DNA of 64,000 nt, taken from NCBI RefSeq assembly GCF_001010805.1, contig NZ_CP011477.1, positions 2,784,501 through 2,848,500 on the forward strand, in the 5' to 3' direction. This document shows positions 46,038-51,016 of this stretch, in pieces. The position numbers and the translations under genes were made by a program. Within the stretch, counting starts at the first letter, position 1; each line of letters opens with the position of its first letter. The stretch comes from Spongiibacter sp. IMCC21906. GTDB taxonomy: Bacteria; Pseudomonadota; Gammaproteobacteria; Pseudomonadales; Spongiibacteraceae. The notes under the pieces are model-generated. The model did no database searches and was not told the origin of the DNA. It was given only the letters and a program-made list of their open reading frames with translations.

Positions 46038-46072
46038 CGACATTGCGGTAACCCGCCGCAATGTCGCTTTTT
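46038..46072 (+). terminator. Strong rho-independent terminator after dapD
   Basis: CGACATTGCGG (46038-46048) pairs perfectly with CCGCAATGTCG (46056-46066) around a 7-nt loop and is followed by CTTTTT (46067-46072). It closes the map-dapD direction and separates it from the membrane/amidoligase run. Confidence 0.93.
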
Positions 46073-46187
46073 GCAAACACTGGTGAACTCCTTGCCAAGC
46101 GGCTACTCTATAAAGGCAACTTGTCTATAAAACAGCGACTTAGACAAGCCGGCTTATTTCTGCCTCAGCGGCGACAAGGAGATAGAG

Positions 46188-46370
46188 ATGGATCTGCAAA
46201 TTACCGGTATTCTTGGCTTTATTATTTTTATTGCCGATATTTGGGCAATCCTCAATGTTATTCAGAGCCGAGAAAGCTCAGGCACAAAATTACTGTGGAT
46301 TGTACTCATTCTAGTTCTGCCACTATTGGGCCTGCTCATCTGGTGGTTTGCTGGACCACGAGAGCCATAG
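46188..46370 (+). CDS. Small two-helix membrane protein, PLDc_N type
   Basis: This 60-residue protein has two hydrophobic segments (about residues 6-22 and 34-54) joined by a polar loop (NVIQSRESSGTKLLW), and ends WWFAGPREP. This resembles the N-terminal membrane domain of cardiolipin synthases and Phospholipase D family proteins (PLDc_N), here without a catalytic domain. AAGGAGATAGAG precedes the ATG, a strong RBS. It is the first gene of the run that leads to the amidoligase. Its function is unknown. Confidence 0.8.
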   Translation: MDLQITGILGFIIFIADIWAILNVIQSRESSGTKLLWIVLILVLPLLGLLIWWFAGPREP

Positions 46371-46830
46371 CTACGCCGTGTATCTTGTTTCTGAGATCGA
46401 CTGGCCACTGATCGTCCACCACCTCACTCAGCTCGCAATTGCCTATGTTTTGGCACTGCCGATAGGTTTTAACCGCGAAGCGGAATCCAGAGGCGTTGGT
46501 TTACGTACATTTCCCTTAGTTGCTATTGCCTGTTGCGCTTATTTGCTTATTGGCCGGGACGTGCTTAGCGGTGACGAATCCCACGCCAGGTTAATGTATG
46601 GCTTGATGAGCGGTATTGGTTTTATTGGCGGTGGCGCCATATTAAAACAGGGCGATTCTGTCTCAGGCACCGCCACGGCATCGGCTATCTGGTCCACTGG
46701 TGCAATCGGTACAGCCGTTGCCTGGCAGCGATATGAAATAGCCATTGTCGTCAGCCTGATGACCTTTCTGACCCTTCGATTACTGGTACCCGTAAAACGC
46801 TGGGCCAAGACTAAGAGACATAACGACTAA
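46348..46830 (+). CDS. MgtC/SapB-family membrane protein
   Basis: The 160-residue product has about four to five membrane helices and MgtC-type motifs: LALPIGFNREAESRGVGLRT and SGIGFIGGGAIL, then ATASAIWSTGAIGTAVAW. It lacks the soluble C-terminal domain of Salmonella MgtC, like many short family members. MgtC proteins affect Mg stress and the F1Fo ATPase; many short ones are uncharacterised. The start is uncertain: the frame opens with TTG at 46348, overlapping the previous gene by 23 nt, and a GTG at 46378 is possible. Confidence 0.85.
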   Translation: MLDHESHSYAVYLVSEIDWPLIVHHLTQLAIAYVLALPIGFNREAESRGVGLRTFPLVAIACCAYLLIGRDVLSGDESHARLMYGLMSGIGFIGGGAILKQGDSVSGTATASAIWSTGAIGTAVAWQRYEIAIVVSLMTFLTLRLLVPVKRWAKTKRHND

Positions 46831-46832
46831 AT

Positions 46833-47903
46833 ATGGACGTTTCCAAAACACCCAAATCGGCTGACTGGGCGATAAAAATTCTCGCCGTGCTGGCAGTGCT
46901 CTACACCTTACAAGTTGCTAGAGACGTGATGCTACCCATCACCTTAGCCATTATTTTTGCCTTGTTGCTGGGTCCTGCCGTGACTCGCTTACAAGACTAC
47001 CGCATTCCCAGAAGCTTAGGTGCTCTCGCGCTACTCACCCTGAGCCTGGGCGCTTTTGCTGGTGGTTTGTATATGCTGACCACCCCCGCGCTAGACTGGT
47101 TAGGGAAGGCCCCCGAAGCAATCAACATCATCCAAGATGAGTTACTCAGCGTCGACAGTGGCAGCAACGAAGTCGATGCGGCAAGCCGCAGCATCGACTC
47201 GTTGGCCAAAACCCTGAGTAGCGAACCCAGCAACCCGCAAATTACCCAAGTAGTGATTACTGAGCCTGGCTGGCGAGCAGAAGTCTGGGAGATAGGCAAA
47301 AATTTTGGCGTCTACGGCACCTTGAGCATCATCATGCTGTTCTTTCTGCTCACCTCCGGCGAAGCACTGCTCAAGCGCTTTATTCACATATTACCCAGCC
47401 AGCGCGACAAGGCCACGGTAATTGACGTGGCAAAACACGCCCAAGAGCAAATGTCCCGGTATTTGGTAACCATTACCGCCGTCAATATTGGCCTGGGAAC
47501 TGTTACCGGATTGGCATTATGGGCGCTGGGGTTTCCCGATCCGGCTTTATGGGGAGTCGTTGCTGCTGTTCTGCGTTATATACCCTATCTGGGCGTCAGC
47601 ATTACAATCATGCTGCTAGCCATCATCAGTGCCGTGAGCTTTGATTCAACGGAAATGATTCTGGCCGCGCCACTTGGCTTTGCTTTACTCACATCCTTTA
47701 CCGGACAATTTGTCGACCCCTTTGTCCACGGCTACCGCTTTAGCCTTAACGCCATTGTCGTCTTTTTATGGATATTCTTTTGGGGCTGGATGTGGGGGGC
47801 ACCGGGCGTTCTGCTTGCCGTGCCACTACTCACCTTATTCCAAGTAATTTGCCAACACGTAGATCGACTCACGCCGATTGCACACATGATAGGAAACGAA
47901 TGA
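46833..47903 (+). CDS. AI-2E family membrane permease
   Basis: The 356-residue product is a polytopic membrane protein of the AI-2E (PerM/YdiK/TqsA) family. It has an N-terminal pair of helices (VMLPITLAIIFALLLGPAVT), a soluble loop about residues 90-145, and the C-terminal helices with VLRYIPYLGVSITIMLL and the conserved VDPFVHGYRFSLNAIVVFLW. Members export quorum signals, sodium or other solutes, and the substrate here is not known. The gap to the amidoligase is 1 nt, so its substrate could be related to that enzyme; that is inference. Confidence 0.9.
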   Translation: MDVSKTPKSADWAIKILAVLAVLYTLQVARDVMLPITLAIIFALLLGPAVTRLQDYRIPRSLGALALLTLSLGAFAGGLYMLTTPALDWLGKAPEAINIIQDELLSVDSGSNEVDAASRSIDSLAKTLSSEPSNPQITQVVITEPGWRAEVWEIGKNFGVYGTLSIIMLFFLLTSGEALLKRFIHILPSQRDKATVIDVAKHAQEQMSRYLVTITAVNIGLGTVTGLALWALGFPDPALWGVVAAVLRYIPYLGVSITIMLLAIISAVSFDSTEMILAAPLGFALLTSFTGQFVDPFVHGYRFSLNAIVVFLWIFFWGWMWGAPGVLLAVPLLTLFQVICQHVDRLTPIAHMIGNE

Positions 47904-47904
47904 C

Positions 47905-48918
47905 ATGACGGATCTGGATACCTACCGCAAAGCGTTATGGCCGCTGCCCATTCAGGCAAAAACAGCCAACAAAAAATACCGGCGCGTAGGCGTAGAAATA
48001 GAGTTTACTGGCCTGCAAATCGACGCCATTGTCGAGATCATCAAAGCAGAACTTGGCGGCAAGGCCGCGCCGGTCTCTGACTATGAGGTTAATGTTGAAG
48101 ACACCTCATTAGGCAGCTTTGGAGTCGAACTGGATTTTGCCTATATCAAAAAGCTTGGTCGGGAACGCAGTGAAAACGGCAAAGGCAATGATTTTGATGA
48201 ACTCGCCGAAAACCTTGTCGGCACCATTGCCAAGCAACTAGTGCCCTTTGAGGTTGTCGGGCCACCGGTAGCAATGCCAGAGTTGTGGAAGCTGGAAAGT
48301 CTGTTTAAAGCCCTGCGACTAGCGGGTGCCGAAGGGACAGGCAGCTCCGCCACCAACGCTTTTGGTTTGCAGCTCAACCCGGAAATGCCTGATTGCGAAG
48401 CGGCCACTATCGTCAATTATTTGCGGGCATTCTTTTGCTTGTTTGATTGGCTCAAAGAACGCAGCAAGGTTGATCTGACTCGCCGCCTGACCTCCTATGT
48501 TGATCCGTTCAGCAAAGAGTATATCCGCCTGGTGCTTAACCCAGACTATGCCCCGGACATGGACACACTGATCGACGACTACTTAAAACATAATCCCACC
48601 CGTAACCGGGCACTGGATATGCTGCCCTTGTTCACTCATATTGATGAGGCTAGAGTCCGGGCCAAAGTCGACGATGACCGAGTGAAGCCCCGGCCAACAC
48701 TGCACTACCGTCTGCCCAACAGCTTAATTGATGATCCTCAATGGGGCTTAATTACCCCATGGCGAGACTGGCTGCAGGTGGATAACCTGGCCAACCAACC
48801 CGAATTATTGGCCGAAGTGTGCGAAGCTTATCTGAAGCACCTGGACAGCTTTACCGATAGCCTGTTTGGCGACTGGGGACACGCGGTTTATCGCTGGCTG
48901 TTTCCGGAGCTGCTATGA
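47905..48918 (+). CDS. Putative amidoligase, glutamine-synthetase fold (Amidoligase_2)
   Basis: The 337-residue product belongs to the predicted amidoligases with a COOH-NH2 ligase fold related to glutamine synthetase. The nucleotide/metal motif GVEIEF (Glu31, Glu33) is followed by FGVELDF (72-78), and then GLQLNPEMP (154-162), KHNPTRNRALDMLPLF (218-233) and RPTLHYRLPN (263-272). Family members are predicted to form amide or peptide-like bonds from ATP, a carboxylate and an amine; the substrate is unknown. AGGAAA precedes the ATG. The stop overlaps the amidotransferase gene by 4 nt, and such a pairing is recurrent in this family. Confidence 0.88.
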   Translation: MTDLDTYRKALWPLPIQAKTANKKYRRVGVEIEFTGLQIDAIVEIIKAELGGKAAPVSDYEVNVEDTSLGSFGVELDFAYIKKLGRERSENGKGNDFDELAENLVGTIAKQLVPFEVVGPPVAMPELWKLESLFKALRLAGAEGTGSSATNAFGLQLNPEMPDCEAATIVNYLRAFFCLFDWLKERSKVDLTRRLTSYVDPFSKEYIRLVLNPDYAPDMDTLIDDYLKHNPTRNRALDMLPLFTHIDEARVRAKVDDDRVKPRPTLHYRLPNSLIDDPQWGLITPWRDWLQVDNLANQPELLAEVCEAYLKHLDSFTDSLFGDWGHAVYRWLFPELL

Positions 48919-49577
48919 CTCGTCCGTTGATTGGCGTCACTGGCGACGATCAAACCCTACGATTTTCTTGGTGGTTTATCCGCTGGGCACTATGGCGCTG
49001 TGGCGCTAAAGCCTGGCGGCTGACGCCCGATCGCAGTACGCTCCCCGACAATCTCGATGGCATCATCATTAGCGGTGGCGACGATATCGACCCGCAACTC
49101 TATTTACCAGACGCCCCCGACGTTGCCCCCATCAATGCTAGACGGGATCGTTTTGAAATCGCTATTTTAGAAAGTGTATTGGGCAAAAGCATGCCTATCC
49201 TTGGGATTTGTCGGGGCGCGCAGCTGATGAATGTAGTGCTTGGCGGCACCTTATTTAGCGATCTTAGGGAAGTGCGCATCAAAACCTCTAATCGACGAAT
49301 GTTGCTACCCCGCAAAACCCTCAACGTGTTAGATAACAGCCAATTGCAAGGAGTACTCGGCACTGCGCGCTGCAAAATAAATAGCCTGCACCACCAAGCT
49401 GTCCGCGACTTGGGAGAAGGCTTAGTGGTTAGCGGCAGAGATCTGGATGAAATTATTCAAGGGGTAGAGAGCCCTGAACACCGCTTTAGAATGGGGGTAC
49501 AGTGGCACCCTGAATACCTTCCCCAAAAGACCGAGCAACTCAGGCTGTTCCAGCATTTAGTTCAGGCGGTTAACTAA
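48915..49577 (+). CDS. Class-I glutamine amidotransferase / gamma-glutamyl hydrolase-like (peptidase C26)
   Basis: The 220-residue protein has the class I triad: Cys99 in ILGICRGAQL (nucleophile elbow), His198 and Glu200 in VQWHPE. The PuuD-like features IISGGDDIDP and SLHHQAV are present. PuuD hydrolyses gamma-glutamyl-GABA, and class I domains can also release ammonia from glutamine. Translational overlap with the amidoligase (ATGA) suggests it hydrolyses or supplies that enzyme's substrate. GGAG lies 5 nt before the ATG. Confidence 0.92.
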   Translation: MTRPLIGVTGDDQTLRFSWWFIRWALWRCGAKAWRLTPDRSTLPDNLDGIIISGGDDIDPQLYLPDAPDVAPINARRDRFEIAILESVLGKSMPILGICRGAQLMNVVLGGTLFSDLREVRIKTSNRRMLLPRKTLNVLDNSQLQGVLGTARCKINSLHHQAVRDLGEGLVVSGRDLDEIIQGVESPEHRFRMGVQWHPEYLPQKTEQLRLFQHLVQAVN

Positions 49578-50002
49578 TGCTGTTTCAGTATTTTCTGCTT
49601 TTTGCTGCCTCTTTTGGTGCCGCAACTATTCTGCCATTTTATTCAGAGATCTTGCTTGTTTCACAGCTTCGGTCTGGTTTAGATCCTTTCTGGCTGTGGT
49701 TTTTTGCCAGCCTTGGTAACACGCTAGGCGCCGGCGTGAACTGGTGGCTAGGGGAGCGTCTGGTGCAGTACTCTGATCGACGCTGGTTTCCTGCCCGCCA
49801 AAGCGATTTACTCCGGGCCCAAAACTGGTTTAATCGCTACGGCCAATGGACCTTATTAATGACATGGTTGCCAGTGGGGGGCGATGCATTGACCGTTATC
49901 GGCGGCATGATGCGAGTGCCAGCACTGCAGTTTTTTTTACTGGTTGGCATCGGTAAAAGTGCCCGCTACGCTCTACTTATTCTTGGTTACAACGCCTTCT
50001 AG
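49577..50002 (+). CDS. YqaA-family membrane protein (SNARE-associated/DedA-like)
   Basis: The 141-residue protein has an N-terminal helix (FQYFLLFAASFGAATILPFYSE), a conserved LGNTLGAGVNWWLGE segment and further hydrophobic helices (LMTWLPVGGDALTVIGGMMR, FFLLVGIGKSARYALLILG). These are the marks of the YqaA group in the DedA/VTT family, which in other bacteria includes lipid flippases; the function of YqaA is not settled. The ATG overlaps the amidotransferase stop (TAATG), placing it in the same operon. Confidence 0.88.
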   Translation: MLFQYFLLFAASFGAATILPFYSEILLVSQLRSGLDPFWLWFFASLGNTLGAGVNWWLGERLVQYSDRRWFPARQSDLLRAQNWFNRYGQWTLLMTWLPVGGDALTVIGGMMRVPALQFFLLVGIGKSARYALLILGYNAF

Positions 50003-50038: not shown

Positions 50039-50590
50039 ATGGCCTTAACTGCAACTGTCTTTAAAGCTTCGCTGGATATCAGCGACCTCCGCCGCCATCA
50101 CTATCAGCACTACGCCTTCACTATTGCACGCCATCCCTCAGAAACTGACGAGCGCATGATGCTTAGGTTGCTCGCCTTCGCCCTTTTCGCCCATCAAGAT
50201 TTAGAATTTACTCGGGGCATTAGCGATACTGACGAGCCAGACCTATGGTTAAAAGCGCCTAGTGGCGAAATTGAACTCTGGGTAGAGCTTGGTAATCCCA
50301 GTAGTAAGCGGCTGCGTCGTGCCCGCAGTTTGGCTTCAAAGATTATGGTTGTCAGCTACGGAGGCCGCACCGCTGAACAATGGTGGCTAGAAAATGAACG
50401 TGAATTACGGGGTTTTAAATCCCTTAGCCTCATTGAGATTGCCCAAACCGAATCTCAGGCACTGGCCGAAATGGCCCAACGGAATATGCGTCTGCAATTT
50501 ACTTTAGACGAGGACTCGATTTGGGTATCAGATCAAAACACTAGCCTAGAAATTCAAGCACAGCTGCGGCTAGGTGACTGGGCCATATAA
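50039..50590 (+). CDS. yaeQ: YaeQ family protein
   Basis: YaeQ is a small cytoplasmic protein with a PD-(D/E)XK-like fold, of uncertain function. The 183-residue product begins MALTATVFKASLDISDLRRHHY and has DEPDLWLKAPSGEIELWVELG, the putative active-site acidic residues, then YGGRTAEQWW. The gap to the upstream gene is 36 nt, and a VOC gene follows 15 nt later. Confidence 0.92.
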   Translation: MALTATVFKASLDISDLRRHHYQHYAFTIARHPSETDERMMLRLLAFALFAHQDLEFTRGISDTDEPDLWLKAPSGEIELWVELGNPSSKRLRRARSLASKIMVVSYGGRTAEQWWLENERELRGFKSLSLIEIAQTESQALAEMAQRNMRLQFTLDEDSIWVSDQNTSLEIQAQLRLGDWAI

Positions 50591-50605: not shown

Positions 50606-51016
50606 GTGAGCGTTATCAACATTCATACCATCGATCACGTCGTGCTGCGCACCGACAAATTGTCAGCAATGCTCGATTTTTACCAACACATTCTGGGGTG
50701 TAAATCAGAGCGGTGCGAAGAAAGCATCGGCCTGTATCAACTGAGAGCCGGGGATGCGCTTATTGATATTGTTCCTGTAAACAGTCCGTTAGGCAAAGAA
50801 GGTGGCCCTCCGCCCGGAGAGCAAGGCCACAATATGGACCATGTCTGCTTACAGCTCAGCCCTTTTAACGGTCCTGAGATTTTACAATTTTTAGATGCGC
50901 AAGGTGTTAGCCGCAGCGATATTGAACGTCGTTATGGCGCCAAGGGTTTTGGTCCGTCTATCTACATCTATGACCCAGAAGGTAACAGAGTCGAACTGAA
51001 AGGCCCGCCTGAATAG
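50606..51016 (+). CDS. VOC-family (glyoxalase/bleomycin-resistance fold) protein
   Basis: The 136-residue protein has the paired beta-alpha-beta-beta-beta modules of the VOC superfamily. Metal-ligand-like positions are His in IDHVVLRT, Glu in YIYDPEGNRVELKGP and His in HNMDHVCLQL. The start is a GTG with AAGGAGG upstream. The substrate cannot be read from sequence. It closes the run that starts at 46188. Confidence 0.88.
   Translation: MSVINIHTIDHVVLRTDKLSAMLDFYQHILGCKSERCEESIGLYQLRAGDALIDIVPVNSPLGKEGGPPPGEQGHNMDHVCLQLSPFNGPEILQFLDAQGVSRSDIERRYGAKGFGPSIYIYDPEGNRVELKGPPE

Follow-up and report, generated by a model that had tools for sequence, protein, structure and literature searches.

The canonical glutamine-synthetase family, PF00120, includes PuuA, and PuuD is a class I glutamine amidotransferase (GATase)-fold hydrolase that cleaves a gamma-glutamyl amide. 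In the part of the Escherichia coli putrescine utilization literature consulted, PuuA is presented as a glutamine-synthetase-type ligase that catalyzes the ATP-dependent gamma-glutamylation of an amine (PMC5403932). For aniline (AtdA1/AtdA2) and 1-naphthylamine (NpaA1/NpaA2), the excerpted source describes a synthetase that adjoins a GAT-like hydrolase in one cluster, and it credits the AtdA2/NpaA2-type hydrolase with holding a toxic gamma-glutamyl amide to an appropriate level (PMC11335346). Amidoligases of the family PF12224 also occur in phages. The passages cited place PF12224 in a gene block with a glutamine amidotransferase and an AIG2/GGCT gene in the LUZ24-like phage UFV-P2 (PMC3890496), and PF12224 and a GATase within the same genomes in OM43 phages (PMC10580990). 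We recognized no characterized PF12224 member in the literature searched, which on amidoligases includes PMC10945688, seen as an excerpt.

Here, we analyzed a PF12224 gene and its surroundings in a window, the whole stretch of 64,000 nucleotides under study, from Spongiibacter sp. IMCC21906 (NZ_CP011477.1, positions 2,784,501 to 2,848,500). Pairing of such a ligase with a GATase is already known. Iyer et al. 2009 reportedly described the ligase-GATase pair as a gene neighborhood, so that the family PF12224 and the GATase pairing are said to be common to those neighborhoods and to our window; the Pfam text on PF12224 presumably names, as partners of the family, a GATase-like thiol peptidase in proteobacteria and Aig2 in fungi. 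The first-pass annotation of this DNA had rated the pair its strongest candidate for an undescribed pathway. Since the pair's neighborhood has reportedly been described, that rating goes too far. What appears to be new is context that narrows the chemistry, namely a linkage to transpeptidases, apparently anchored bacterial forms of the gamma-glutamyl cyclotransferase (GGACT), and a YqaA partner.

Results

A five-gene run around the amidoligase-GATase pair

The genes and sites considered below are as follows (window coordinates).

46348..46830, + strand: MgtC-family protein, packed upstream of the AI-2E gene (PF02308, E=9.6e-27)
46833..47903, + strand: AI-2E family transporter, directly upstream of the amidoligase (PF01594, E=4.2e-41)
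47905..48918, + strand: amidoligase ORF, 337 aa, Amidoligase_2 (PF12224, E=9.6e-63), predicted ATP-dependent gamma-glutamyl-amide synthetase
47989..48006, + strand: GVEIEF motif, ligase residues 29-34; E31 and E33 invariant, putative metal ligands
48915..49577, + strand: class I GATase/Peptidase_C26, 220 aa (PF07722, E=1.6e-46), predicted PuuD-like gamma-glutamyl-amide hydrolase
49209..49211, + strand: GATase Cys99 codon, catalytic nucleophile (invariant in 63/63 aligned)
49506..49514, + strand: GATase His198-Pro199-Glu200 codons, catalytic triad (invariant in 63/63 aligned)
49577..50002, + strand: VTT-domain membrane protein, YqaA homolog, 141 aa, third gene of the module (PF09335, E=1.5e-12)
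50039-50590: YaeQ, downstream of the VTT gene
50606-51016: glyoxalase-family protein, after YaeQ

Both genes of the pair were confirmed as ORFs where the first-pass annotation had put them, as was the 4-nt overlap that it had noted: the junction reads ATGA, with the ATG at 48915 and the TGA at 48916-48918. The packed run, which that annotation had overlooked, is longer than the pair and comprises the MgtC, AI-2E, amidoligase, GATase, and VTT genes. MgtC and the AI-2E ATG lie 2 nt apart, the AI-2E stop is 1 nt from the amidoligase ATG, and the GATase stop shares 1 nt with the VTT ATG. Membership of the same gene run hints weakly at a functional link between MgtC and the ligase. A 116-aa ORF (46061-46411) that overlaps the MgtC gene start may be spurious.

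The ligase is a PF12224 protein with ten invariant residues

The window ligase matched PF12224 at 212.8 bits (Pfam curated cut-off, 22), and the GVEIEF motif picked out in the first-pass annotation was found in it. We aligned the window protein with the ligases of 66 of 80 named loci, which are 42-69% identical to it. All 67 matched PF12224 (limit E<=10; best, 4.9e-74), and ten residues (E31, E33, E75, D77, E116, N158, R233, R263, H267, and R269) were invariant in 67/67. Nor did these ten vary in a broader set of 15, among them the plasmid ligases L037-L041. We suggest that the ten residues make up a putative active site, in which E31 and E33, by analogy with the family, might bind metal.

Unlike PuuA, the window ligase has no Pfam match to PF00120; the 15 families that the 67 ligases, taken together, matched at E<=10 do not include Gln-synt_C (PF00120), in a search in which HMMER's filters drop most very weak matches. 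The window ligase also differs in family from AtdA1 and NpaA1. The glutamine-synthetase fold named in the first-pass annotation is predicted from family membership. A PDB profile search with the ligase found no structural relative. By hhalign, comparisons with GCS2 and GshA fell below significance, as did the positive control of GCS2 against GshA, and a profile comparison with YbdK likewise gave no clear result. Redundancy with glutathione synthesis was considered and rejected, as the genome has a GshA match of its own.

We found the ligase in 23 of 57 near relatives, 109 of 391 sampled genomes of the order, 21 of 370 of the class, and 26 of 397 of the phylum. A scan of named-genome contigs yielded at least 582 ligase relatives among 592 candidate stretches, from which the best 80 were kept. 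These best 80 include Salinisphaera, Halopseudomonas, Salinivibrio, Marinobacterium, Thiohalocapsa, and a planctomycete, and many of the carriers among them are marine or halophilic by name; the nearest named relatives among the matches listed are Zhongshania and Spongiibacter. In the sample of the order, one ligase match (G888:C4:254066-255011) is split over two adjoining open frames and is apparently a broken copy. The ligase also occurs on 11 plasmid records, of which 8 were inspected. The alphaproteobacterial plasmid amidoligases L037, L038, L039, L040, and L041 have no GATase within 6 kb. Close phage relatives were looked for and rejected, with none in 50,697 phage records or in the viral contigs searched; a PHROG amidoligase matched the window ligase at E=0.076. 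The GATases of the phage modules are of the PF13522 type, and UFV-P2 adds ATP-grasp and COOH-NH2 ligase genes, unlike the window.

Three families that cleave gamma-glutamyl bonds recur beside the ligase

The first-pass annotation had proposed a comparison of gene neighborhoods across genomes. We pooled 218 loci (the best 80 named, 20 earlier ones, and 118 from genome samples), reduced them to 202 by removing ligases >=95% identical, and counted gene neighbors by profile searches in place of automatic gene calls. In 180 of the 202 dereplicated loci, far beyond chance, and in 73 of the 80 named loci (the best 80 of at least 582), the gene that immediately follows the ligase is the GATase. A VTT gene follows the ligase in 59/202 loci, and a gamma-glutamyltranspeptidase gene directly precedes it in 9/202. 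Ten of the 202 have a GGACT/AIG2 gene beside the ligase (8 on the same strand and 2 on the opposite one), five of them without a GATase. In 14/202 loci, neither GATase, GGACT, transpeptidase, nor VTT stands beside the ligase. The loci are not independent, and hence we also counted minimum changes on a ligase tree (a quick tree of 154 rows): GATase required 9, GGACT 7, transpeptidase 3, and VTT 21. In a Kineobactrum locus (L110:9108-9932), the amidoligase-GATase pair is immediately preceded by a class II GATase (PF13230).

We then tallied Pfam families among the flanking genes. In 150 loci, 105 upstream neighbors were found, of which 95 were scanned after 10 short or doubtful ones had been dropped by hand; they comprised 8 AI-2E, 7 transpeptidase, 7 GGACT, and 4 MFS proteins. 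Downstream, 75 of 93 neighbors were scanned (18 short or doubtful ones dropped by hand), and at least 29 of the 75 were VTT proteins, a lower bound because the dropped rows include L031, which had earlier been counted as VTT. As a distal control, we scanned 95 ORFs more than 3 kb away (8 of 103 left out), among which no family rose above 3. The 25 families listed for this control include none of transpeptidase, GGACT, and VTT, which puts each of the three at one copy at most. In the rest of the 202 loci, profiles for GGACT and transpeptidase gave 1 and 0 matches, respectively, a near absence that is biased because the profiles were built from the linked copies; the Pfam tallies of neighbors and control are independent of those profiles.

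Cleavage of gamma-glutamyl bonds is common to three unrelated families: the Peptidase_C26/PuuD hydrolases, the gamma-glutamyltranspeptidases, and the gamma-glutamyl cyclotransferases. The best explanation for the recurrence of all three next to a single ligase is that this enzyme forms a bond of that kind. We infer function throughout from sequence and neighborhood, and on that footing we consider it probable that the pair is a make-and-break gamma-glutamylation module, in which the ligase would form a gamma-glutamyl amide and the GATase would hydrolyze it. The first-pass annotation had offered two options for the pair, to make and remove gamma-glutamyl links or to amidate; the recurrence of two further cleaving families supports the former.

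The GATase resembles gamma-glutamyl hydrolases more than synthetase subunits

The window GATase matched Peptidase_C26 (PF07722) at 159.3 bits (cut-off, 20.5) and Pfam GATase at E=2.1e-16. In an alignment of the window protein with 62 of the 73 GATases found in the best 80 named loci, C99, H198, and E200 never vary, so the triad, reported as intact in the first-pass annotation, is indeed so. In the PDB, the protein matched Lin1909 (2.8e-29), 7d4r (2.4e-19), PuuD (6vtv, 4.4e-16), and TrpG (1.6e-4), as well as 7d53 and 7d50 of the 7d4r group. We take the 7d4r group to be a Pseudomonas gamma-glutamyl-polyamine enzyme, and Lin1909 to be of the gamma-glutamyl hydrolase type. Among NCBIfam models, PuuD ranked first, at 68.7 bits against an equivalog cut-off of 266; as the cut-off was missed, the GATase may work like PuuD but is not claimed as its orthologue. 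By eye, it has no export or lipobox-like signal.

MurT-GatD, in which a glutaminase subunit hands ammonia to an amidating ligase, offers a different model. The GATase would then be a glutaminase subunit that feeds ammonia to the ligase for amidation of a carboxylate. The intact class I triad and the 4-nt gene overlap would fit such a complex. So would the correlation between ligase and GATase distances (r=0.83 over 175 loci, with a maximum of 0.05 in 500 permutations, uncorrected for species descent) and the lack of a close GATase in amidoligase-negative genomes of the order: none of 38, hand-picked from the listed negatives, has a GATase above 145 bits, where positive controls scored 320 and 323 bits. 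However, the GATase is closer to PuuD/C26 hydrolases than to any synthetase subunit, 22 of the 202 ligase loci have no linked GATase (5 of these have a gamma-glutamyl cyclotransferase instead), and amidation gives the linked transpeptidase and cyclotransferase no role. We therefore regard amidation, the second option of the first-pass annotation, as disfavored and quite unlikely, and we read the GATase as a putative PuuD-like gamma-glutamyl-amide hydrolase, not an ammonia donor.

Neighbors give little sign of a catabolic pathway or of protein tagging

The ligase and GATase-fold hydrolase proposed here recall the PuuA/PuuD scheme, and we considered a variant of the Puu pathway that scavenges nitrogen from polyamines or other amines, with the gamma-glutamyl amide as an obligate catabolic intermediate. 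The PuuD-like GATase would suit it, as would two features of single lineages: a PuuR-like regulator, found in two operons from a single genus code, and a plasmid locus (L034) in which genes for an aldehyde dehydrogenase and an amino-acid ABC binding protein lie shortly before the ligase. Yet, unlike in the Puu system, no oxidase or aldehyde dehydrogenase is present among the window neighbors scanned, and in the neighbor tallies neither these nor other families of amine catabolism recur; one class-III aminotransferase is listed there, and unlisted families have at most one member. Nor does any family specific to one substrate recur widely in those tallies. In the AtdA and NpaA systems, a dioxygenase consumes the amide, whereas no Rieske-type oxygenase was found among the window neighbors scanned. 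The minimal unit is a ligase plus a cleaving enzyme, not a pathway, and we think a scavenging role unlikely.

A very improbable alternative is peptide or protein tagging, in which the ligase would join the carboxyls of glutamate or a peptide to protein lysines and the peptidase would remove them, as in pupylation by PafA and Dop. It draws on the place of PF12224 in what we take to be a glutamine-synthetase-like superfamily that includes PafA. Against it, C26 relatives act on small gamma-glutamyl compounds, and the scanned neighbors, which hold single peptidases, show no recurrent proteasome or protease family; tags shorter than ~70 aa would fall below the ORF limits of that scan. The make-and-break reading thus remains the one we prefer and follow below.

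Joint presence and possible exchange of the GATase

In a few loci, GGACT may stand in for the GATase. It is present in 5 of 22 loci that lack a GATase and in 5 of 180 that have one (Fisher p=0.0017; p=0.006 and 0.010 when dereplicated at 80% and 70%, respectively). A phylogeny-aware exchange test gave p=1 but has no power, and the five GGACT-only loci amount to about 3 genera; the exchange is suggestive only. We searched the whole genomes of 11 GATase-less loci. Five (G272, G351, G874, G830, and G1035) have a GATase of at least 190 bits elsewhere, which in G272 is paired with a second copy of the ligase; four (G026, G798, G811, and G499) have one of 103-148 bits; and G913 and G556 have only weak matches, of the CTP/GMP-synthase kind by frame length. 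Among the GGACT types, G913 is without a GATase, G811 has a distant one, and G874 has a close one elsewhere. Hence, true replacement is clean only in G913.

The absence of a close GATase from the 38 amidoligase-negative genomes and the ligase-GATase distance correlation, both given above, also speak for a module. Joint absence was seen close to home. Of 21 genomes of the window's own genus and family, the two without the ligase (G010 and G018) also lack a YqaA-type VTT protein and a close GATase, and their AI-2E proteins are only 22-23% identical, with no close homolog. Distances of ligase and VTT proteins correlate at r=0.54 (55 loci, uncorrected for species descent).

Predicted anchoring of cleaving enzymes and a YqaA-type partner

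All 10 linked GGACT proteins have an N-terminal hydrophobic stretch in alignment, and their GTL and YER motifs are invariant. In the nine that were scored (L148, with a doubtful start, was left out), the charge is +2 to +5 before the helix, with the amino terminus counted, and -1 to -5 after it, from which the catalytic side is predicted to lie outside the cytoplasm. In L156 (5360-7455) and L174 (5429-7501), a PuuR-like regulator (153 bits, below the cut-off of 211) heads an operon with a membrane-anchored GGACT and an amidoligase, with no linked GATase. These are two genomes of one genus code and so probably represent one event.

Gamma-glutamyltranspeptidase is usually soluble and periplasmic. 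The linked transpeptidases are those of L062, L066, L074, L075, L077, L111, L112, L165, and L064, of which L075 (doubtful start) and L064 (incomplete) were left out. A permissive lipobox pattern was found at the N terminus of six of the seven examined, and the seventh has MAAC, which the pattern misses. For two of the linked sequences, L077 and L085, start codons were picked inside the longest frame. Together, the putatively anchored GGACT and the lipobox-like transpeptidases suggest that the product, or the substrate, may reach the periplasm or envelope.

The VTT protein of the window matched PF09335 at 48.5 bits (cut-off, 33.9) and is 39% identical over 132 positions to E. coli YqaA, of the COG1238 DedA subfamily; UptA models gave 31.8 bits, far below their cut-off of 300. 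In the portion of Todor et al. that we draw on, little is said to be known of the function of the YqaA/COG1238 subfamily, which is judged unlikely to be an undecaprenyl phosphate flippase, with uncharged or positively charged lipids suggested instead (PMC10127716). In E. coli K-12, yqaA lies directly upstream of gshA, which encodes another gamma-glutamyl ligase (L242:6884-8941). We rejected a general yqaA-gshA linkage, as the two adjoin in 1 of 30 YqaA-type loci (L296:1-1932) and in 0 of the 30 best gshA loci. A literature search for both names as whole words found no paper. The amidoligase-GATase pair is present in 4 of the same 30 YqaA-type loci, the window's own included.

Discussion

We propose that, at the expense of ATP, the amidoligase would activate the gamma-carboxyl group of glutamate, the putative acyl donor, or of a glutamyl compound, and join it to an amine, for which a polyamine-type compound is a weak guess. 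The GATase-fold partner would return the predicted gamma-glutamyl amide to glutamate and amine, and so set the level of the amide, in a role comparable to that of AtdA2, which follows AtdA1. Other lineages may have added a membrane-anchored cyclotransferase or a transpeptidase, predicted to be periplasmic, to the GATase or put one in its place. Transport of the amine, or of its gamma-glutamyl derivative, across the inner membrane is the probable role of the YqaA-type protein. A fuller version, which we offer tentatively as possible though doubtful, is an envelope-directed cycle in which a gamma-glutamyl amide of an amine or amino-lipid would be made in the cytoplasm, taken across the inner membrane, as such or in a lipid form, by the YqaA-type carrier, and cleaved either inside by the GATase or outside by an anchored GGACT or a lipoprotein transpeptidase. 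If true, YqaA/COG1238 proteins would be carriers for gamma-glutamyl compounds, and the position of yqaA beside gshA would fit.

The meeting of three gamma-glutamyl-cleaving families on one ligase makes for a concrete and cheap assay, with glutamate, ATP, and a panel of amines. Since the alternative cleaving enzymes are predicted to be anchored on the outside, they also indicate where the product may be sought, and the module ties a little-known membrane protein, YqaA, to gamma-glutamyl chemistry.
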